Source of the DNA: Zetaproteobacteria bacterium CG1_02_55_237
Lineage (GTDB): Bacteria > Pseudomonadota > Zetaproteobacteria > Mariprofundales > Mariprofundaceae
DNA: 64,000 nucleotides
Direction of reading: 5' to 3'
NCBI GenBank assembly: GCA_001871195.1
Contig: MNXA01000015.1
Location: 1-64,000, forward strand
In this document: positions 44,749-56,792 of the stretch, in pieces
Numbering within the stretch: position 1 is the stretch's first letter
Layout: each line of letters opens with the position of its first letter
Notes under the pieces: generated by a model
Seen by the model: the letters and a program-made list of their open reading frames with translations, nothing else
What the model was told of the DNA's origin: nothing
Databases searched by the model: none
Position numbers and translations under genes: made by a program

Positions 44749-44804
44749 ATGCCCGCTTTCAGGTGAACTCTTGGTAGAAATGACCGGCTATGGAGTTGGT
44801 TTTT

Positions 44805-46049
44805 ATGAGCAAGAGTTATGTACGTGCGCTGAAGTGTCGTGAATGCGGTCAGGAATATCCGATTGAGCCGACGCATGTCTGCGAGTTCTGTTTCGGGCCG
44901 CTGGAAGTGGCTTACGATTACGACAGGCTCAAGGGTAAATTCACCCGCGAACTGATCGAGTCGCGTCCGCAGACCATGTGGCGCTACAAGGAACTGCTGC
45001 CGATTGACGGAGAGCCGACGGTGGGCGTGCAGAATGGCTATACGCCGCTGGTCCGGGCACGCAATCTGGAAAAATATCTGGGCGTTTCCGAGCTTTATAT
45101 CAAGAACGATTCGGTGTGCTACCCGACCCTGTCCTTCAAGGATCGCGTGGTTTCCGTTGCACTTTCCAAGGCCGTGGAGTTCGGTTTCACCACCGTGGCC
45201 TGTGCCTCGACCGGTAACTTGGCCGGTTCCGTGGCTGCCAATGCTGCAGCGGCAGGATTGGAATCCTATGTGTTCATCCCGCACGATCTGGAGCAGGGCA
45301 AGGTGCTCGGCGCCGGCATCTTCGGTACCAAAATCATCGGTATCCGCGGCAAGTATGACGATGTGAACCGCCTGTGTTCGGAAGTGGCCGGCAAGTACGG
45401 CTGGGCCTTTGTGAACGTGAATGTGCGTCCGTTCTATGCCGAAGGTTCGAAGTCGCTGGGTTACGAAGTGATGGAGCAACTGGGCTGGAAGGCACCGAAA
45501 CATATCGTCGTGCCGATGGCCTCCGGTTCCCTGTGCACCAAGGTGGACAAGTCCATCAAGGAATTTATCAAGCTTGGTCTGATTGAGGATAACGGCACGG
45601 CCGTTTACGGGGCGCAAGCCACCGGTTGCTCGCCGATCAGTAAATCAGTCAAGGAAGGCACCGACCTTATTCATCCGGTGATTGCCGATACGATTGCCAA
45701 ATCTCTGGCCATCGGTAATCCGGCGGACGGTTACTACGCCAACCGAGTGATTCACGAATCCGGTGGCTGGGCCGAGGATATTTCCGATCAGGAAGTGGTG
45801 GATGCGATGAAGCTGCTGGCTGAAAAAGAGGGTATCTTCGCGGAAACGGCTGGTGGTGTTACATTGGGCTGTGCTCAGAAGATGATTGAGTCCGGCCGCC
45901 TGCCGCGCGATGAATCCATCGTGCTGTGCATTACCGGCAATGGCCTGAAGACGCAGGAGGCAGTGCTCAATGCATATGCCAAGCCGCGCATCATCGATGC
46001 GAGCCTGAAAGAGTTTGACCTGTTGGCGCAAGCCGACGGTGTGAAGTAA
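44805..46049 (+). CDS. thrC: Threonine synthase-like PLP enzyme
   Basis: A 414-residue fold-type II PLP enzyme. The N-terminal zinc-knuckle cysteines are Cys11/Cys14 and Cys26/Cys29. PLP should bind Lys112 (LSFKDRV), with ASTGNLAGS as the phosphate-side loop. By family this converts O-phosphohomoserine to threonine. The SAM riboswitch and the neighbouring sulfur carrier raise the alternative that it makes homocysteine from phosphohomoserine. ATG 44805 has GGAG nine bases upstream; an in-frame ATG at 44790 would add five residues. Confidence 0.85.
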   Translation: MSKSYVRALKCRECGQEYPIEPTHVCEFCFGPLEVAYDYDRLKGKFTRELIESRPQTMWRYKELLPIDGEPTVGVQNGYTPLVRARNLEKYLGVSELYIKNDSVCYPTLSFKDRVVSVALSKAVEFGFTTVACASTGNLAGSVAANAAAAGLESYVFIPHDLEQGKVLGAGIFGTKIIGIRGKYDDVNRLCSEVAGKYGWAFVNVNVRPFYAEGSKSLGYEVMEQLGWKAPKHIVVPMASGSLCTKVDKSIKEFIKLGLIEDNGTAVYGAQATGCSPISKSVKEGTDLIHPVIADTIAKSLAIGNPADGYYANRVIHESGGWAEDISDQEVVDAMKLLAEKEGIFAETAGGVTLGCAQKMIESGRLPRDESIVLCITGNGLKTQEAVLNAYAKPRIIDASLKEFDLLAQADGVK

Positions 46050-46079: not shown

Positions 46080-46361
46080 ATGACAGTATCCGTACGTATC
46101 CCGACCCCGCTTCGCAAGCTGACTGATGGTGCCGATGAGGTAAACGTCGAGGCGGCCAATGTCGGCGAGATGATTGATAATCTGGAGGCAGCACATGCCG
46201 GCCTGAAGGCCCGTCTTTGTGATGATGCCGGCGAAATCCGCCGCTTCGTGAATGTTTACGTCAACGATGAGGATGTGCGCTTTCTTGAAGGTCGCGCTAC
46301 CGCATTGAAAGATGGTGACGAGGTTTCCATTGTGCCGGCCATCGCCGGCGGCCGGAACTAA
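46080..46361 (+). CDS. MoaD/ThiS-type sulfur carrier protein
   Basis: A 93-residue ubiquitin-fold protein of the MoaD, ThiS and CysO group. It ends AIAGGRN, so the Gly90-Gly91 pair normally adenylated and thiocarboxylated by an E1 enzyme is followed by two extra residues. A protease would have to trim these before charging, as reported for sulfur carriers in some methionine and cysteine pathways; none is encoded here. AGGAG precedes the ATG. Context points to cysteine or homocysteine synthesis rather than molybdopterin or thiamin. Confidence 0.85.
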
Positions 46362-46365
46362 GGGC

Positions 46366-46605
46366 ATGAAACAGCGAGTCTATCTCTCCTTTTCCGAGAA
46401 GACGGTGCGCGAGCCGCTGATCTGGAAGCTGGGGCACGAGTTTGATGTGGTGACCAATATCCGCACGGCAGAAGTCCGCGAACATATGGGTCTGGTCGGC
46501 CTGGAGATTGAAGGCAAGACCGAGGTGGTGGAAGCAGCGGTGAAGTGGCTGGAAGATCAGGGCGTGCATGTGGACCCGATCGAACAGAACATCATCGAGG
46601 GCTGA
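46366..46605 (+). CDS. NIL-domain protein
   Basis: A 79-residue protein that is nearly all a NIL domain (RVYLSFSEKTVREPLIWKLG, then IRTAEVREHMGLVGLEIEG), the domain at the end of methionine ABC transporter ATPase MetN, where it senses methionine. Here it stands alone and starts five bases after the sulfur carrier. It may be a methionine sensor or a partner in homocysteine formation, as NIL proteins are in some anaerobes; this is inference. Confidence 0.85.
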   Translation: MKQRVYLSFSEKTVREPLIWKLGHEFDVVTNIRTAEVREHMGLVGLEIEGKTEVVEAAVKWLEDQGVHVDPIEQNIIEG

Positions 46606-46687
46606 TTGATCTATTGCATGTGGTTTTGCATGCAAAACACAGTTAAGCATTGCTTATGGATGCGCAAAACATTTGGTGAGGTGTGAA

Positions 46688-47620
46688 ATGGCAATATACG
46701 ACAATATCACAGAAACGGTTGGCAGCACGCCGCTGGTGCGCATGCAGCGTATCAACAAAGGGCTTGATGCCGAAATCCTGCTCAAGCTGGAGTTCTTTAA
46801 TCCGCTGAATTCGGTCAAGGACCGTATCGGTCGCGCCATGGTGGAAGCGGCTGAAAAGAGTGGAGCTCTCCAACCGGGCGGCGTGATAGTCGAGCCGACC
46901 AGCGGTAATACCGGCATCGCACTGGCCTTTGTGGCGCGTGCCCGTGGCTACCGTTGTATTTTGACCATGCCGGAGTCGATGAGCATGGAGCGACGCAAGC
47001 TGCTCAAGCTGCTCGGCGCAGACTTGATTCTCACCCCTGCAGAGAAGGGTATGAAGGGCGCGATTGCCAAGGCTGTTGAGATTACCGCAGAGACAGAGAA
47101 CGCTTTCATGCCTCAGCAGTTCTCGAATCCGGCCAACCCGGAGATTCATCGCAAGACAACGGCGGAAGAAATCTGGCGCGATACCGATGGCAAAGTGGAT
47201 GCGGTTGTCGCAGGTGTGGGTACCGGCGGTACCATTACCGGTGTGGCCGAAGTGCTGAAGTCGCGCAATCCGGCTTTTCAGGCGATTGCCGTGGAACCGG
47301 CCGACTCTCCCGTGATTTCCGGCGGCGCTCCCGGGCCGCACAAGATTCAGGGTATCGGTGCAGGCTTCATCCCGGAGAACCTGAACGTGGATATCATCGA
47401 TAGCGTTGAGCAGGTGACCAACGACGAGGCTATCGCCATGGCTCGCCGTCTTTCCGACGAAGAAGGCATAGCCGGCGGTATTTCATCCGGTGCTGCAGTG
47501 ACTGCAGCGCTGCGCGTAGCAGCCCGTCCGGATATGAAGGGTAAGCGCATCGTGGTGATTATCCCGTCCATGGCAGAGCGCTATATGTCCACCGACCTGT
47601 TCAAGGGCATCGAGGTTTAG
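46688..47620 (+). CDS. cysK: Cysteine synthase A (O-acetylserine sulfhydrylase)
   Basis: A 310-residue fold-type II PLP enzyme making cysteine from O-acetylserine and sulfide. Lys44 (NSVKDR) holds PLP, and [17 protein letters not shown] and [13 protein letters not shown] match CysK more closely than CysM. The carrier gene nearby leaves open use of a thiocarboxylate sulfur donor, as mycobacterial CysM does. GAGG precedes ATG 46688. An 82-base spacer separates it from the NIL gene. Confidence 0.9.
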
Positions 47621-47781
47621 GCAGAGGCCCATATTTGCGCCCCAGCTGCGTTGTTGCGGTGCCTGATTGTTTGCATTTGGCCTCACATATGATTCCAAAT
47701 GCTGCGGTTTTGCGCTCCTCACGCCTTGCTGGAACCACAAATCTGACCCTGTGATTTTTTAGTTATATTCTGGAGTTTGAA

Positions 47782-48606
47782 GTGATTGATTTTACCGAGA
47801 AACAAATCGAGCGCTATTCGCGCCACATTATTCTGCCCGAAGTCGGGGCGGAAGGGCAGTCGAAACTGCTTGAGTCGAAGGTGTTCATGATCGGCGCAGG
47901 CGGCCTTGGTTCGCCCGTGGCCTATTATCTGGCCGCGGCCGGTGTAGGGACGATTGGCATTGCCGATGCGGATGTGGTGGATTCGTCCAATCTGCAGCGC
48001 CAGATCCTGCATAACGAAGATCGTATTGGCATGCCCAAGGTGGAGAGCGCACGCGAAACGATTCAGGCGCTCAACCCTGATGTGAAGGTCAATACCTACA
48101 ACTACTTCGTCACCGAGGACAATATCCGCGAAATCATCCGCGAATACGACCTGATCATTGATGGTTGCGACAACTTCCCGACGCGTTTTCTGGTTAATGA
48201 CGCATGCTACTTCGAGAAGAAGCCGCTGATTTCCGGTGCGATGTTCCGTTTCGAGGGGCAGGTTGCCACCTTCAAGCCGCATCAGCAGAAGGATGCGCCG
48301 TGCTATCGCTGTCTGTATCCGGAGCCACCACCCAAGGGCTTGGTCCCGTCCTGTTCCGAGGCCGGTATTCTGGGGGCTCTGGCCGGTGCTGTCGGCACCA
48401 TTCAGGCCGTGGAAGCCATCAAGGAGCTGCTGGGTATCGGCGATTCGCTGGCCGGTAAGCTGATGACCTTCGATGCCATGCGCATGGAGTGGAAGAAACT
48501 GAAGTTGCGCAAGGATCCGGGTTGTCCGCTGTGTGGCGAGAATCCAACGATTACCGATCTGGTGACCTACGAGCAGGCCTGTGAACTGCAGTTGGGTCAC
48601 AGTTAG
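47782..48606 (+). CDS. MoeB/ThiF-type E1 sulfur-carrier activating enzyme
   Basis: A 274-residue adenylyltransferase: Rossmann loop MIGAGGLGSPVAYYLA, Arg in SNLQRQILH, catalytic Cys191 (PSCSEAGILG) and two zinc CXXC pairs (CYRC, CPLC). It activates the C-terminal Gly of MoaD/ThiS-type proteins. There is no rhodanese domain, so sulfur must come from another donor, such as the downstream sulfite reductase-TusA protein. GTG start with GGAG. The 161 bases upstream contain no gene. Confidence 0.9.
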   Translation: MIDFTEKQIERYSRHIILPEVGAEGQSKLLESKVFMIGAGGLGSPVAYYLAAAGVGTIGIADADVVDSSNLQRQILHNEDRIGMPKVESARETIQALNPDVKVNTYNYFVTEDNIREIIREYDLIIDGCDNFPTRFLVNDACYFEKKPLISGAMFRFEGQVATFKPHQQKDAPCYRCLYPEPPPKGLVPSCSEAGILGALAGAVGTIQAVEAIKELLGIGDSLAGKLMTFDAMRMEWKKLKLRKDPGCPLCGENPTITDLVTYEQACELQLGHS

Positions 48607-48728: not shown

Positions 48729-51071
48729 ATGGCTGAATTTAATTTTACGCGTACATCCGATGTTGATGAATTCGAGGCGGGCTACAAGGCGTTTAAGGCG
48801 GGCACCATGTCCGAGGAACGCTTCACCCCGTTTCGTCTGCAAATGGGTGTGTATGGTCAGCGTCAGGAAGGCGTGCAGATGGTGCGCGTCAAGCTGCCGG
48901 GTGGCAACCTGACCCCGGATCAACTGGATGTGATCGGCGACTGCGTGGCTGATTATGCCGGTTGCCTGCCCACCGATGGTACACTCAGCATTGCCCCCGA
49001 GAAATTCGCCCATGTGACCACACGCCAGGATATTCAGGCTAACTTCGTATCGCTGGACGATGTGCCGGCCTTTCTGCGCCGGCTTGATGCGGCGGGGCTG
49101 ACCACGCGCGAGGCCTGCGGCAATACCGTGCGTAATGTTTCCTCATGCTTTCTGGCCGGTCGCTGCCCTGCAGAGCATGCCGATGTGAGTGTGCATGCGC
49201 GCCGCTTTGCCGAGTTTTTCCTGCGCCACCCGCTGGCGCAGCAGTTCCCGCGCAAGTTCAAGGTGACCTTCTCCGGTTGTGCCACCGATTGCGGCCTTTC
49301 AGGCATGCACGATATCGGCTTTATCGCCACCCAGAAAGATGGGGTCAAAGGCTTCCAGGTGTGGGCCGCAGGTGGCCTTTCCTCACAGCCGATGAGTGCC
49401 TTGCTGCTGGAAGAGTTCATTGCTGAGTCCGAGATGCTGCGCGTCGGTGAAGCGCTGATGCGTATCCATTTCAAGTATTCCGATCGCAAGCGTCGTGCCC
49501 GTGCACGTATGAAATATGTGGCGCAGAAGTTGGGCGCCGAGGGCTTTATCGAGGAATACAGGAAACAGCGTGCAGTGATCGAGAAGACGCATGCCGAAGA
49601 TGCAGGATATCCGGAAGCCGGCTGGCGCACGCCGACAGCCGAACTTCCACAGTCGGACTCCGGCGTGGTCGATCAGCACAATGGCAAGAAAGCGATTCTG
49701 CTCAACCTGTTCCGCGGTGATATGACACCGGCGCAGTGTCATGCCGTGGCCGATGCTGCGCGTGCGGCCGGCACTGATAAGCTGAGTGTGACCACCGAGC
49801 AGGGACTGGTGATTGCCGATGTGGATGCAGGCAAGGTTGCTGCTGCACAGGCCGTGCTCAATGCTGCGGGCCTGACCACCGAGTATGCACGCGGCATTGC
49901 CGATGTGGTGGCTTGCCCGGGTACCGAAACCTGCCGTCTGGGCATTACCTCCAGCCGTGGCCTTGCCGAAGCGCTGCAACCGCTGATGGCTGATCTGAAA
50001 AAGGATGCGACGCTTGCCGGTATTACTGTGAAAGCATCCGGCTGTCAGCACTCCTGTGCCCGTCACCATATTGCCGATCTCGGCTTTCATGGACTGGCCA
50101 AGAAGATTGATGGACAGGCTGTACCGCATTACCAGTTGCATGTCGGCGGCTCGGGCAAGGCAGGTCAGCCGCTGGCCTTTGCCACCGATCCGGTGCCTGC
50201 CAAGCGTGCGCCGGAGGCCGGTATCGCCATGCTGCATGCCTACAAGGATGGGCGCACGGCAGGCGAAAGTGTGCACGACTGGGCTTCGCGTATCGGTCAG
50301 GATGGTATCAATGCGGTCCTGACACCGTTTGCCGGTCAGCCGGGCGAGATCGATGGACTGATCTACGACTGGAGCGAGAACGAGGCTTTCAACACCAAGG
50401 GTAACAAGAAGGGTGAGTGTGCCGGTGCAGTGCTGTCGATGTCCGATGCGCTGATTTCCGAAGCGGAATATGAGTTACTGATTGCCCGCGCGCATACCGA
50501 TGCGATGTTCTGGGCCGAAGCGCTCAGCGCACTGCGTCGCTCGGCGGTTTCGGCGGCACGTGCTTTCCTCGTGGCCTATGGTGAAGCGCCTGAGGACGAT
50601 GGCGAGGTGTTCGGGCTGCTGGCTGTTAATGCCGCAGCGGACAAGCCTGTCATGGCTGGTTTTCAGGCTGTGCAGTCGGCGATGATGAATATCGATCTGG
50701 CTGATCCGGGTGCAGGTGTGACCAAACTCAAGGGTGTGCAGGGCGAGTGGCTGGCTCTGGCCGAAAAACGTTTTGCCGCTGTTCCGGAAGAAGTGGTTGC
50801 AGCAGAGAAGGCTCCAGCCTCGATTGAGGCCGCTGGTGACGTCGTGCTGCTTGATCTCTCCGGTGTTGCCTGCCCGATGAATTTCGTGAAGACCAAGATC
50901 AAGCTGACCGGCATGCCGATAGGCAGCCTGCTTGATGTGATTCTCGATGACGGTGCGCCGATTGAGAATGTTCCGCTCTCGCTTCAGGAGCAGGGACAGA
51001 AGGTGCTGTCCAAAGAGCAGATATCCGACAGCCAGTGGAAAATCCGCGTCGAAAAGACCGGGAATATCTGA
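48729..51071 (+). CDS. Sulfite (nitrite-type) reductase fused to a C-terminal TusA domain
   Basis: A 780-residue protein. Residues about 1-480 form a sirohaem sulfite/nitrite reductase with the cluster ligands Cys396 and Cys402 (CPGTETC) and Cys439 and Cys443 (CQHSC), reducing sulfite to sulfide with six electrons. A helical middle (about 500-690) follows. The last 80 residues form a TusA/SirA sulfur-carrier domain with Cys715 in ACPMNFVKTK. The fusion suggests that sulfide or persulfide is passed directly to a carrier. GAGG precedes the ATG. Confidence 0.88.
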   Translation: MAEFNFTRTSDVDEFEAGYKAFKAGTMSEERFTPFRLQMGVYGQRQEGVQMVRVKLPGGNLTPDQLDVIGDCVADYAGCLPTDGTLSIAPEKFAHVTTRQDIQANFVSLDDVPAFLRRLDAAGLTTREACGNTVRNVSSCFLAGRCPAEHADVSVHARRFAEFFLRHPLAQQFPRKFKVTFSGCATDCGLSGMHDIGFIATQKDGVKGFQVWAAGGLSSQPMSALLLEEFIAESEMLRVGEALMRIHFKYSDRKRRARARMKYVAQKLGAEGFIEEYRKQRAVIEKTHAEDAGYPEAGWRTPTAELPQSDSGVVDQHNGKKAILLNLFRGDMTPAQCHAVADAARAAGTDKLSVTTEQGLVIADVDAGKVAAAQAVLNAAGLTTEYARGIADVVACPGTETCRLGITSSRGLAEALQPLMADLKKDATLAGITVKASGCQHSCARHHIADLGFHGLAKKIDGQAVPHYQLHVGGSGKAGQPLAFATDPVPAKRAPEAGIAMLHAYKDGRTAGESVHDWASRIGQDGINAVLTPFAGQPGEIDGLIYDWSENEAFNTKGNKKGECAGAVLSMSDALISEAEYELLIARAHTDAMFWAEALSALRRSAVSAARAFLVAYGEAPEDDGEVFGLLAVNAAADKPVMAGFQAVQSAMMNIDLADPGAGVTKLKGVQGEWLALAEKRFAAVPEEVVAAEKAPASIEAAGDVVLLDLSGVACPMNFVKTKIKLTGMPIGSLLDVILDDGAPIENVPLSLQEQGQKVLSKEQISDSQWKIRVEKTGNI

Positions 51072-51091: not shown

Positions 51092-53725
51092 ATGGAACCC
51101 CTGAATCCATTCGAGAATCCGGGCCGCTGCAAGCTGGCACTGGTGAGTCAGGGCGTTGCCTTGCCCGGGGGCTTGCAGAATTCCTCGCATTGGGTGGCAC
51201 AGGCCAATGCGACCGAATCGGTGATCGATATCAGGCTGCCATCCGGGCATTTTGCCACGGTTCCGGTGGCGCAGCCCTATACCCAGAAGAGTTCGATTCA
51301 GCTCAGGCAGCAGGATGTTGAGGGCAATGCGGCTTTGTATTGGGGCGATGAAAAGCTCGATATTCAGGTTTTGCCTGCGCCGCGTTTTTACCGGCAAAAA
51401 ACACGAAGCGGCGCCCGCATGGGCAGCTTTGCCTCCCTGCATGAAAACCTGCTTATGCTGCATCCGCTCATGGGCTGTGGTTTTTTTGCCAAAAAGGGCG
51501 CGGCATGCCAGTACTGCCAGTATGACTCGATGCTCAATGAGGATGAGCCACCGCTGCGTGATCCTCTCGAGTTGGTGGAAGTGGTGCGTGCGGCCCTTGC
51601 TGAGCGCGAAATTGATACGGTGTATATCTACAACGGTTTTGCACCGGGCGATGATGTAGGCCTGTCCAGACTGGTGCCGGTGATTGCACTGCTCAGACGC
51701 CATCTGGGTCATCGTCAGATAGCGCTGGAAACGGTTGCACCGAAAGACACCTCGGTGATCGATGCGCTGTATGCAGCTGGTCTTGATATCTTTGTCTGCA
51801 ATCTTGAAGTGCATGATGCAGACAGGTTTGCCGAGGTATGCCCCGGCAAACAGCACGCGGGTGGTCAGGCGGCCATCTGGAAAGCGCTGGACCATGCGCG
51901 TCAGGTATTCCGTGAGGGTACAGTGGTCAGCCATCTGATTGTTGGTCTGGATGATATTGAATCGACCAAGAAGGGTATTGATGCACTGATTGCTCACGGG
52001 GTCGTGCCCTTGCTGCAGCCGTTCAGACCGCTGCCGGGAACGCCGCTGGAGAGCCAGACCAGCCCTTCACTTGAGACTATGGAGGAGTTATTCCTCTACC
52101 TGTACGCGGCATTGAAAAGAACGGATTTCCCCACGCATCGCCTGCGCCATATGGGGCGCGTGCTGACCCCGATGGAGAGTCGTGTGCTGGATGGCAGGGA
52201 AGCGATGCTCAGCGAACGCTGGGTGGCATCCTCAATCGGGCGTCATCTGGATGGCTGGGTGGATGGGTTGCGCCGCCATTTGCGGGCTGGCAATGGCGAA
52301 GAGAACGTCGCTCAGCTGGATAGCAGGCCGATCCATGTGTTGCTGGCCGGTGAGGCTTTGCCCTTTGCCGCCCTTGTGATGATCGCGCTGCTGGCATTTG
52401 CTGCCGGTTCTGTGGATGCACCGCAGGGCCTGAGCCAGAATGGCTGGAGCTCGCTGGTCGTCTTTGTGTTGTGTCTGGTTCTGTGGGTGACACAGCTGCT
52501 TCCCTTGGCGGTGACTTCACTGCTGGGTCTGGCGCTGTTGCCGCTGCTTGGCGTATTGCCGGCAACAGATGTGTTTGCCTTGTTCGGCAATCCTTCAGTC
52601 TTCTTTATTCTCGGTGCATTCATGCTGGCGGCGGGTGCGATGCAGAGTGGCCTGTCCGAGCGCATGGCATTGTTGACCATTGACCGCTTTGGCACCAGTC
52701 CGAGGCGTTTGTTGCTCACCATGCTTTTATTGCCCGCTGTCATGGCCTGCTTCATGCCCGAACATGCTGTGGCCGCACTGTTTTTACCCATCGCCTGGGA
52801 GATTGTACACAGCCTGCGACTTAAGGCGGGTAATCTTTATGCGCAGTCGATCTTTTTTGCCCTTTCCTGGGGTGCGATTATCGGTGGTGTGATCACCCTG
52901 CTGGGCGGTGCGCGCGGGCCACTGGCCATGGCGCTGAGTGAAGAGCTCACAGGTCAAACCTTCTCCTTTGCCGACTGGACACTGGCTGCAGCACCGATAG
53001 CACTTTCGGTATTGGCTGTTTCTGCGCTGGTCTTAACGCGGATTACACCCATGGGCGGCATTGATATTTCATCAGCCCGTGAACGGATTTCCCTGCGCAG
53101 GCTTGAGCTGGGCGACTTCGACCTGAAATCAAAGGCGATGGCCCTGCTGCTGCTGATCACCATGGGTGCATGGATCATGGCGGGTCACGCCAGCTCCCTT
53201 GCCGGCATTGCGCTGATCAGCGCGGTGCTGATGTTTGCCCTGCGCATGGTCAGCTGGCGGGCGGTTGAAGAGCACGTGAATTGGGGTGTGGTGCTGATGT
53301 ACGGTGGTGCCATTGCCATTGGTAAGGCGCTGACGGTAACTGGGGCCGGCCTGTGGCTGGCGCACCTGCTGTTCCCGGCGAGCCTGGCAGGCCTCGCCCT
53401 GTTGGCCATGCTGGCACTGATTACGCTGCTGTTTACCGAAGGCGTGAGCAATGCCGCAGCTGTGGCCATTGTCCTGCCTGTGGCGATTCCCGTTGCCGTG
53501 GCGGCAAACATCGATCCGGTCACTGCGGCGCTGGCTGTCGGTATTGTTTCCGGTTTTGCCTTCATGTTGCCGATGGGAACACCGCCGAATGCCATGATTT
53601 TTGCCACAGGTTATGTCAAAGCATCACGCATGCTGCGCTATGGCGCGGTTTTATCACTCGCAGCATTTGTACTATTCATGATAACTGCGTCGGTCTGGTG
53701 GCCGTTGCTGGAAAGGATCGGGTAA
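51092..53725 (+). CDS. Radical SAM protein fused to an SLC13-type anion permease
   Basis: An 877-residue open frame. Residues about 1-400 form a radical SAM-like barrel, with cluster cysteines Cys129, Cys139 and Cys142, a CX9CX2C spacing instead of CX3CX2C. Later elements such as AIALETVAPKDTSVIDALYAAGLD and VSHLIVGLDDI fit the fold. Residues about 415-877 form an SLC13/DASS-type permease with 11-12 helices. The second SNT-type motif is SNAAAVAIVLPV; the first reads MPEHAVAALFLPI. Placed between sulfite reductase and cysH, it probably imports sulfate. The radical chemistry is unknown. Confidence 0.78.
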   Translation: MEPLNPFENPGRCKLALVSQGVALPGGLQNSSHWVAQANATESVIDIRLPSGHFATVPVAQPYTQKSSIQLRQQDVEGNAALYWGDEKLDIQVLPAPRFYRQKTRSGARMGSFASLHENLLMLHPLMGCGFFAKKGAACQYCQYDSMLNEDEPPLRDPLELVEVVRAALAEREIDTVYIYNGFAPGDDVGLSRLVPVIALLRRHLGHRQIALETVAPKDTSVIDALYAAGLDIFVCNLEVHDADRFAEVCPGKQHAGGQAAIWKALDHARQVFREGTVVSHLIVGLDDIESTKKGIDALIAHGVVPLLQPFRPLPGTPLESQTSPSLETMEELFLYLYAALKRTDFPTHRLRHMGRVLTPMESRVLDGREAMLSERWVASSIGRHLDGWVDGLRRHLRAGNGEENVAQLDSRPIHVLLAGEALPFAALVMIALLAFAAGSVDAPQGLSQNGWSSLVVFVLCLVLWVTQLLPLAVTSLLGLALLPLLGVLPATDVFALFGNPSVFFILGAFMLAAGAMQSGLSERMALLTIDRFGTSPRRLLLTMLLLPAVMACFMPEHAVAALFLPIAWEIVHSLRLKAGNLYAQSIFFALSWGAIIGGVITLLGGARGPLAMALSEELTGQTFSFADWTLAAAPIALSVLAVSALVLTRITPMGGIDISSARERISLRRLELGDFDLKSKAMALLLLITMGAWIMAGHASSLAGIALISAVLMFALRMVSWRAVEEHVNWGVVLMYGGAIAIGKALTVTGAGLWLAHLLFPASLAGLALLAMLALITLLFTEGVSNAAAVAIVLPVAIPVAVAANIDPVTAALAVGIVSGFAFMLPMGTPPNAMIFATGYVKASRMLRYGAVLSLAAFVLFMITASVWWPLLERIG

Positions 53726-53728
53726 TCC

Positions 53729-54451
53729 ATGAGTGCTCTAATTGAACAGGCGGTAAGCCTGCTGAAACAGGCCAAGGAAACGCATGGCGATGGTCTTGTT
53801 TATCCGTGCAGCATGGGCCTTGAAGGCTCGGTGATGGTGGATTTAATCAACAAAAACAGCCTTGATATTCCAATTATGACGCTTGATACCGGCCGCCTGC
53901 CGCAGGCGACCTATGATGTGATCAGTGCCTTTGAAGCGCGCTATGGTATTCGTGTACAGGTCCTGTTTCCCGATTGTCACGAAGTGGAAGCGATGGTGCG
54001 CGAGCATGGCGTGAACCTGTTCCGAACATCGGTGGAGCTGCGCAAGAGCTGCTGCGAGATTCGCAAGATCAGGCCCTTGATGCGCGCACTTGAGGGCAAA
54101 GAGGCGTGGATTACCGGCAGGCGTCGCCAGCAGTCCAAGGGACGTTCCGACCTTCAATTCATTGAAACCGATCCGGTGTATGGCTTGAAGAAATACAATC
54201 CGCTGCTGGAGTGGAGTCTGGATGATGTGTCGGAGTATGTGCGTGCCAACGCTGTGCCGTACAACAGGTTGCACGATGCGCATTACCACTCCATCGGTTG
54301 CGAGTGCTGTACACGCGCGATTTCGATGGGTGAAGATGAACGTGCCGGTCGCTGGTGGTGGGAAAATGATGACGGGGCGGCAGAGTGTGGCCTGCATGTC
54401 ATGAGCCTGAAGGAAGTGACGGGCGATATCGAAGACGGCGAAGGAATTTAG
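53729..54451 (+). CDS. cysH: Adenylyl-sulfate (APS) reductase
   Basis: A 240-residue enzyme that reduces APS to sulfite with thioredoxin or glutaredoxin. Two cysteine pairs, RKSCCEIRK and GCECCTRAI, mark the [4Fe-4S] type that uses APS and not PAPS. A further cysteine in the C-terminal ECGLH matches the catalytic region. No cysC gene is present, consistent with APS use. It starts 3 bases after the permease fusion. Confidence 0.93.
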   Translation: MSALIEQAVSLLKQAKETHGDGLVYPCSMGLEGSVMVDLINKNSLDIPIMTLDTGRLPQATYDVISAFEARYGIRVQVLFPDCHEVEAMVREHGVNLFRTSVELRKSCCEIRKIRPLMRALEGKEAWITGRRRQQSKGRSDLQFIETDPVYGLKKYNPLLEWSLDDVSEYVRANAVPYNRLHDAHYHSIGCECCTRAISMGEDERAGRWWWENDDGAAECGLHVMSLKEVTGDIEDGEGI

Positions 54452-54491
54452 GGCCTGTTTCGGGTCCCAAGGTAAAGAGCAGTAGGAGAGG

Positions 54492-55418
54492 ATGATGTCT
54501 GAAAGTGAAATAACGGAGCACAAGCTGACCCAGCTCAAGGCGCTGGAGGCGGAGTCGATTCATATCATCCGCGAGGTGGTGGCTGAGTTCCGCAATCCGG
54601 TCATGCTGTATTCGGTGGGCAAGGATTCCAGCGTGCTGTTGCATCTGGCGCGCAAGGCCTTTTATCCGGCCAAGCTTCCGTTCCCGCTGTTGCATGTCGA
54701 TACCGGTTACAAGTTCAGGGAAATGTACGAGTTCCGCGACAACTACTGCAAAGAGGTGGGTGCCGATCTGATTGTGCGGCGCAACGAGGATGCCATTGCC
54801 AAGGGCATGAATCCTAAGGATTTCGGCGTGGCCCGTTGCTGTGGCCTGCTGAAAACGCAGGGCCTGCTTGATGCGCTGGAAGAGGGTGAGTACGACGCGG
54901 CCTTCGGCGGTGCGCGGCGCGATGAAGAGCGCTCACGCGCCAAGGAGCGTGTATTCTCGATGCGTGATGAATTCGGCCAGTGGGATCCGAAGAATCAGCG
55001 TCCCGAACTGTGGAGCATCTACAACGGCCGCATCCACGAGGGTGAGTCGGTGCGTGTCTTCCCGATCTCCAACTGGACCGAGATGGATGTGTGGTTGTAT
55101 ATCCGCGAGGAGAAGATTCCGATTGTGCCGCTGTATTTCGCCAAGGAACGACTGATGGTGGAGCGCAAGAACATGCTGATTCCTTATTATGAAGAAATGA
55201 AGGATCAGCTGCTTGAAGGTGAGGAGCCGAAGATGGTCATGAGTCGTTTCCGTACACTGGGTTGCAGCCCGTGTACCGGTGCGGTGCGCTCAAGTGCCAC
55301 CAATATGGATGAGATTGTGATTGAGGCTGCCGCGGCACGCCGTTCGGAACGCGAAACGCGCATCATTGATCACGGTTCGAACAGCATGGAAGACAAGAAA
55401 AAAGAAGGCTACTTCTAG
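54492..55418 (+). CDS. cysD: Sulfate adenylyltransferase subunit 2
   Basis: CysD condenses sulfate and ATP to APS, driven by the GTPase CysN. The 308-residue protein has the PP-loop [14 protein letters not shown] and the conserved [20 protein letters not shown] lies upstream; ATG 54492 or 54495 may be used. It is followed by a hairpin repeat and cysN. Confidence 0.96.
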
Positions 55419-55427
55419 GTTTGATTA

Positions 55428-55495
55428 ACCACAGAGACACGAAGGCACAAAGATTTATTCAATATTACTACTTTGTGTCTCTGTGCCTTTGTGGT
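55428..55495. repeat. Imperfect inverted repeat between cysD and cysN
   Basis: ACCACAGAGACACGAAGGCACAAAG-like arm (55428-55452) faces its imperfect complement (55471-55495) around an 18-base loop. The motif of alternating CACAGAG/CTCTGTG words is a common intergenic repeat in many bacteria. A half-copy, CTTCGCTGCCTTCGTGGTGAG, lies at 48691-48711. It could fold in RNA between the two genes. Confidence 0.6.
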
Positions 55496-55511
55496 GAAAA
55501 GAGGGTTTGAG

Positions 55512-56792
55512 ATGACGGAATTGAATATCAAGATGACCAAGGAAATCGAGTTGCTGCGCCTGGTCACTGTAGGCAGCGTGGACGATGGCAAATCAACGCT
55601 GATCGGTCGTCTACTGGTCGATACCAAGGGTGCGTTCGAGGATCAGCTGCTGGCCGTGCGCAAGCAGAGGGGGGCGGAAACTGTCGCCTCGGCTGCGGAG
55701 ATCGATCTGGCCATGTTGACCGATGGACTCTCCGCCGAGCGCGAACAGGGCATCACCATTGACGTTGCCTACCGCTATTTTGCCACTCCGAAGCGCAAGT
55801 TTATCATGGCGGATTGCCCGGGACATGAGCAGTACACCCGCAATATGGTGACCGGGGCTTCCACCGCCAGTGCTGCCATCATCCTGATTGATGCGCGCAA
55901 TGGCGTGATGCAGCAGACCAGGCGACACACCCATATCCTGGGCCTGTTGAATATTCCGCACCTGATTGTGGCCGTGAACAAGATGGATCTGGTCGGCTTC
56001 GATCAGAAGGTCTACGAGGGCATTCGCAGCGAGATGCAGGCCTACTGCGAGAAGCAGGGCGTGCAGGATCTGATCTGCATTCCGATGTCGGCACTTGAGG
56101 GCGATATGGTTGCCGTACGTGGTGAGAACCTTGCTTGGTACGAAGGACTGACCCTGCTGGAGACGCTGGAAACCCTTTCCGCTCTTGGCGATATCGACAG
56201 CAAGCCGTTCCGCTTCCCTGTGCAGCTAGTCAACCGCCCGCAGACAGCTGAATTGCCGGACTATCGCGGTTTCATGGGCGCGATTGCCTCGGGCACTGTG
56301 AAGGTCGGTGATGAGGTTGTGGTTGCATCAACGGGGCTTAGCTCGAAGGTGGCCGAGATCGTTACCTTTGATGGCAATCTGCAAGAGGCATTTGCACCGC
56401 AGAGCATCACCCTGACCCTTGAGGATGATATCGACATTTCACGCGGCGACATGCTGGTGCATCCGCAGGCCGTGCCGTCCGACACCAAGGAGTTGGTTGC
56501 CAACGTCTGCTGGATTGGCAGTGAGCCGCTGAGCGTGCGTAAGAAGTATCTGCTCAAGCACACCACCAGCACCGTCAAGGCGATGGTCAACAGCATTGAT
56601 TTTCGTCGCAATATCAACACGCTCGATAAAGAGAGTGCAGATGAGCTCGAAATGAACGAGATCGGCCAGATTACCTTCAAGCTGCTCAAACCCTTATTCT
56701 ATGATTCTTATGCGGACAACCGCAGCACGGGCAGCTTTATCGTTATCGACACCTTCACCAACAATACCGTTGGTGCCGGCATGATCGTCTGA
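55512..56792 (+). CDS. cysN: Sulfate adenylyltransferase subunit 1 (GTPase)
   Basis: The GTPase partner of CysD, 426 residues, without the APS kinase domain that is fused in some species. It has G1 GSVDDGKST, G3 DCPGHEQY and G4 NKMDL, followed by two EF-Tu-like beta barrels. An earlier in-frame ATG at 55473 lies inside the hairpin repeat; ATG 55512 has GAGG and the usual N-terminus. A terminator ends the operon. Confidence 0.96.
   Translation: MTELNIKMTKEIELLRLVTVGSVDDGKSTLIGRLLVDTKGAFEDQLLAVRKQRGAETVASAAEIDLAMLTDGLSAEREQGITIDVAYRYFATPKRKFIMADCPGHEQYTRNMVTGASTASAAIILIDARNGVMQQTRRHTHILGLLNIPHLIVAVNKMDLVGFDQKVYEGIRSEMQAYCEKQGVQDLICIPMSALEGDMVAVRGENLAWYEGLTLLETLETLSALGDIDSKPFRFPVQLVNRPQTAELPDYRGFMGAIASGTVKVGDEVVVASTGLSSKVAEIVTFDGNLQEAFAPQSITLTLEDDIDISRGDMLVHPQAVPSDTKELVANVCWIGSEPLSVRKKYLLKHTTSTVKAMVNSIDFRRNINTLDKESADELEMNEIGQITFKLLKPLFYDSYADNRSTGSFIVIDTFTNNTVGAGMIV

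Follow-up and report, generated by a model that had tools for sequence, protein, structure and literature searches.

The gene at positions 51092–53725 of the analysed window, a 64,000-nucleotide stretch of a Mariprofundus-like genome, encodes in one chain a radical SAM domain followed by a permease of the DASS/SLC13 family. This rSAM::DASS architecture is real, unites two known protein families and is found class-wide in the Zetaproteobacteria, which are iron oxidisers. It is apparently new to the literature: the initial annotation knew of no described enzyme that couples radical SAM chemistry to a sulfate-type permease, and our searches for radical SAM together with SLC13, or radical SAM together with Zetaproteobacteria, found no relevant paper. 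The same is true of a search of literature titles for the CX9CX2C motif, which gave no relevant radical SAM paper.

Domain architecture, distribution and constraint

The uninterrupted frame noticed at the outset extends from the ATG at 51092 to the stop codon at 53725 and encodes 877 amino acids without an internal stop. About 20 bases separate the ATG from the preceding gene's stop codon, and homologous proteins begin near the same residue. Residues 42–341 match the NCBIfam model NF045502 (variant_rSAM) with 171.6 bits, the cut-off being 125. All 19 aligned members match this model (171.6–174.2 bits for the domain from the window), and the score of the generic Pfam model Radical_SAM (28.6) falls narrowly below its cut-off of 29.5. 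The permease part matches TIGR00785 (DASS) at residues 443–870 with a score of 238.7 (cut-off 198.6), covering profile positions 2–444 of 444, and Pfam Na_sulph_symp at residues 432–873 with a score of 198 (cut-off 27), so that the complete anion transporter proposed earlier is borne out over its full length. The features of the gene and its neighbours are collected in the table.

Table. Features of the fusion gene and adjacent operon genes in the window; residues are numbered in the fusion protein
Feature	Position	Strand	Basis
Radical SAM module, residues ~1–400	51092..52291	+	NF045502, AF2/Foldseek, dN/dS ~0.06
Predicted cluster-binding motif Cys129-X9-Cys139-X2-Cys142 (CGFFAKKGAACQYC)	51476..51517	+	sequence, invariance, NitD spacing
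Cys236 and Cys250 (CNLEV...CPGK)	51797..51841	+	invariant in all aligned Zetaproteobacteria
Variable linker, residues ~401–432	52292..52387	+	3% of positions invariant
DASS/SLC13 permease, residues ~433–877	52388..53725	+	TIGR00785, PF00939, structure match, motif check
Sulfite/nitrite-reductase-like protein fused to TusA (SIR::TusA), directly upstream	48729..51071	+	Pfam NIR_SIR, NIR_SIR_ferr, TusA
ThiS/MoaD-like carrier, NIL, PLP-dependent cysteine synthase-like protein (CysM), ThiF/MoeB-like E1	46080..48606	+	Pfam, conserved order
cysH (PAPS/APS reductase family), cysD, cysN	53729..56792	+	Pfam

Structure modelling, suggested with the initial annotation as a check, agrees with the profile match in pointing to the radical SAM-like barrel that had been claimed. 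The AF2 model of the domain has a pTM of 0.85, and its top Foldseek matches are HydE, RlmN, PylB, BioB and LIAS (E-values down to 7.5e-10). A small β-rich N-terminal part (residues ~20–94) is followed by a predicted barrel of the BioB/LipA/HydE type. The PDB sequence search gave no relevant match for the radical SAM domain. The three-cysteine cluster motif of the radical SAM superfamily is present with CX9CX2C spacing at the three residues originally named, and it is invariant in both alignments (A1 and A2).

The loss of a stop codon between two genes by sequencing error, named at first as a possible refutation, is ruled out by conservation across independent genomes. Full-length fusions at 60–88% identity were found in many of them (25 loci with such relatives in the genome collection), and the fusion is no artefact because it recurs in independent isolates and in MAGs; the isolates include Mariprofundus sp. 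KV, M. micogutta ET2, M. ferrooxydans PV-1 and M. erugo P3. In whole-genome searches the radical SAM gene was found in 74 of 78 Zetaproteobacteria, the four genomes lacking it being 57–88% complete. No close relative of the domain was found in about 320 other Pseudomonadota, where the best matches are about 27–33% identical and are mostly NIT1C-type proteins. A profile of the domain separates the two groups: Zetaproteobacterial members score above 580 bits (fragments left out) and the top outsider scores 63. The viral contigs contained no relatives, and relatives on plasmids are only about 27% identical and mostly annotated as MSMEG_0568. In these searches, which centred on the Pseudomonadota, none of the NF045502 members found outside the Zetaproteobacterial set had a DASS permease as fusion partner or paired gene.

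The search for split neighbours, also proposed with the initial annotation, found separate radical SAM and permease genes in several lineages (G004, G005, G007 and G262), where they overlap or sit a few bases apart. Where a locus has both domains, they are fused in 56 cases and separate in 11, counts that include some duplicates of one genome. In a tree of 48 rows the split rows cluster near one part, and at least two changes between the fused and split states are needed. Covalent linkage is thus not essential, and models that need it are weakened. One genome of an otherwise fused lineage, G039 (L052/L106), has a single in-frame TAG between the domains; an error, readthrough and recent fission are all possible. 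That operon neighbours with unrelated jobs were merged neutrally by stop loss would fit the variable linker, the presence of both states in neighbouring lineages and a relative, described below, whose permease manages without the radical SAM domain. We nevertheless regard this as distinctly improbable, since the fused state is dominant in the same counts and spread over the order, and the genes adjoin even when split.

Purifying selection acts strongly on both domains, with dN/dS of about 0.06. Nei–Gojobori comparisons of the window gene with three relatives gave 0.057–0.070 for the radical SAM domain and 0.040–0.067 for the permease. The proportion of invariant positions is 37% in the radical SAM domain and 33% in the permease, compared with the few in the linker. 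Five cysteines of the radical SAM domain are invariant, the three of the cluster motif together with Cys236 and Cys250.

Operon context and the permease

The cys operon setting is upheld both by Pfam matches of the neighbouring genes and by conserved gene order. The order recurring across loci is ThiS-like, NIL, CysM, MoeB, SIR::TusA and the fusion, usually followed by cysH, cysD and cysN. The cysH gene is absent from the operon in some relatives and is located elsewhere in several of those genomes; a cysH match was found in 67 of the 78 genomes, which makes sulfate reduction a general trait. In one family (f3) the genes downstream of the fusion vary, and SIR::TusA remains upstream.

Several features of these operons were noted in addition. 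In the window the operon is opened by a threonine-synthase-like PLP enzyme (44790–46049), whose match to Pfam NinF at residues 15–39 is probably a small cysteine motif. The SIR::TusA protein scores far below the cut-offs of its top NCBIfam equivalogs and therefore forms a distinct subgroup. In genome G040 an ORF of 379 amino acids with a Walker-type start (GARQTGKT; L107:5113-6252) is located between SIR::TusA and rSAM::DASS. An extra small TusA-like gene, with 39–53% identity to the TusA part of SIR::TusA, follows cysH and, where cysD is in view, precedes that gene at loci L014, L021, L034, L038-L040, L044-L047, L049, L061 and L111.

The predicted structure of the permease matches NaCT, the sulfate carrier NaS1 and VcINDY (Foldseek, with TM-scores reaching 0.87 when normalised by target length). 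The sodium-coupled subgroup of DASS transporters has two SNT signature motifs. In the fusion the first of these is replaced by an invariant PEH (residues 556–558, window positions 52757–52765), and the second reads SNA (residues 786–788) and is also invariant. Sodium coupling is doubtful because PEH stands in for the first motif. The sequence has an Arg-rich stretch ahead of the first transmembrane segment and none in the loop immediately following it, which by the positive-inside rule would place the N-terminus in the cytoplasm. No sulfate ABC permease scored above cut-off in any Zetaproteobacterium searched. A SulP-family protein was also found in them, so the DASS permease need not be the sole sulfate route.

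An informative comparison is provided by a genome from another family of the same phylum (G041). Its operon encodes a threonine-synthase-like enzyme, a ThiS-like carrier, a cysteine synthase, an E1, CysH, sulfate adenylyltransferase and a sulfite reductase with a TusA-like end, together with a DASS permease that is 36–40% identical to that of the window and has the same PEH motif; no radical SAM gene is present in this genome. Since such an operon has the permease without the radical SAM domain, the latter looks like an addition. For the same reason plain sulfate is favoured over an exotic compound, and the comparison supports sulfate as the probable substrate of the permease.

This bears on a possible organosulfur route, by which a sulfonate or a compound like it would enter through the permease and be cleaved by the radical SAM domain, giving sulfite for the adjoining reductase. 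The gene does lie between the sulfite reductase and the sulfate-activation genes, and sulfite would feed SIR directly. However, a permease of the same PEH subgroup accompanies sulfate adenylyltransferase in G041 with no radical SAM domain, and cysDN and cysH are retained beside the fusion. In addition, we know of no sulfonate cleavage by BioB/LipA-like enzymes, and we consider the route quite unlikely.

Proposed role of the radical SAM domain

The initial annotation had offered three candidate roles for the fusion: it could modify a substrate during uptake, put transport under the control of SAM or sulfur state, or serve an unknown sulfur compound. The reading that we prefer, and to which we give about an even chance, is that the radical SAM module lies in the cytoplasm, is probably catalytic, is tethered to the sulfate-type importer of a cysteine pathway of the thiocarboxylate type and acts within the same route. 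The cysteine operon of the Zetaproteobacteria would then specify an inner-membrane protein with two domains, encoded in a single chain or by two paired genes beside SIR::TusA. The permease would supply CysDN, CysH and SIR with imported sulfate or a closely related sulfur oxyanion, and the N-terminal domain would hang in the cytoplasm, where it may bind a [4Fe-4S] cluster and SAM and be catalytically active on a component or intermediate of this sulfur-assimilation route. The tether would fix the stoichiometry and put the domain at the entry of the pathway. We favour a catalytic role since conservation of the enzyme core is as strong as that of the permease, which does not hold for the connector. 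The narrower proposal that the enzyme works at the importer itself, with uptake coupled to a radical reaction on a sulfur substrate, the transporter or its sulfur-relay partners, seems to us rather doubtful.

The domain could instead act as a sensor or gate, with the Fe-S cluster and bound SAM reporting sulfur sufficiency and the domain turning sulfate import down or up while catalysing no net reaction. The pathway yields SAM and Fe-S clusters as end products, the domain is fused to a transporter, and cytosolic regulatory domains are known on other SLC13-family proteins. We judge a sensor unlikely all the same, as the two parts can be encoded by separate genes, the unconserved linker is unusual for an allosteric connector, and the barrel retains enzyme-like conservation.

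Whichever reading applies, a near-universal part of Zetaproteobacterial cysteine synthesis is a radical SAM domain without an assigned function. Through the operon it is linked with sulfate uptake, with sulfite reduction and with a protein-bound sulfur relay, and this narrows the search for its substrate. The locus thereby makes the poorly understood NF045502/COG2516 group of radical SAM proteins, the NIT1C protein included, accessible to testing. Were the enzyme to act on uptake or on the relay, it would represent a step of sulfur assimilation absent from current pathway maps. Coupling at the importer would amount to a transport-coupled radical SAM system fixed across a whole bacterial class; we know of no earlier system of this kind.

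Relation to known systems

The radical SAM domain belongs by score to NF045502, a family curated as a domain of unknown function. Among its closest known counterparts is NitD (TIGR04043, COG2516, biotin synthase-related), the radical SAM protein of the NIT1C clusters (PMC1199592), with which it has in common the CX9CX2C spacing, the PGK motif and the general fold at about 27% identity. The cysteine loop called expanded in the initial annotation is therefore present but not peculiar to the fusion, given the same spacing in NIT1C NitD/MSMEG_0568. A relative from genome G084 has CX3CX2C, lacks the loop residues and scores 121 bits against NF045502, narrowly below the cut-off. Taken together, NitD and the G084 relative indicate that the spacing varies within the family and is no mark of fusion; on the alignments, the nine-residue spacing is one gained or lost inside the wider family. 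A wider-family relative with the canonical CX3CX2C lies at L100:6539-7621.

Membership of NitD itself was discarded, as the domain scores 108–111 against TIGR04043, far below the cut-off of 303.7. Unlike NitD, the Zetaproteobacterial domain is without the C-terminal GCxxCGxC cysteines, and its locus has no nitrilase neighbours of the kind found in NIT1C clusters. Conversely, neither NitD nor the G084 relative has Cys236 or Cys250.

LipS2, LipA, BioB and HydE share the predicted barrel fold, and their profile matches are weak and far below cut-off. Lipoyl and biotin synthases have the canonical CX3CX2C and auxiliary clusters, and LipS2 requires two C-terminal cysteines (PMC9585515). A sulfur-inserting enzyme of this type, fed by the TusA/ThiS relay, would suit the TusA and ThiS neighbours, the LIAS and BioB structure matches and the low-scoring profile hits to LipS2 (18 of 19 members), LipA and BioB. 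The LipS2 model, however, gives the domain only 23–25 bits against a cut-off of 270, and a census of its cysteines found none of the LipS2-type auxiliary-cluster residues. LipS2-like sulfur insertion is disfavoured because the C-terminal cysteines of both NitD and LipS2 are lacking, and we hold it very unlikely. A stand-in for a missing lipoyl synthase was likewise discarded, since the genome encodes a dedicated LipA (405 bits).

Sulfur-assimilation operons combining a carrier, an E1 and SirA (TusA) were described in 2006 (Iyer et al., row 4e; PMC1779556). The present operon has in common with them the carrier, the E1-like protein, the TusA-type domain, sulfite reductase, PAPS reductase and cysteine synthase. 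In contrast to those operons, no JAB peptidase was found among the operon genes scanned here, the permease is of the DASS and not the ABC type, and a radical SAM domain is added. The permease in turn resembles the DASS/SLC13 transporters VcINDY, NaCT and NaS1 in profile and fold, and differs from them in the PEH motif and in the N-terminal radical SAM module.
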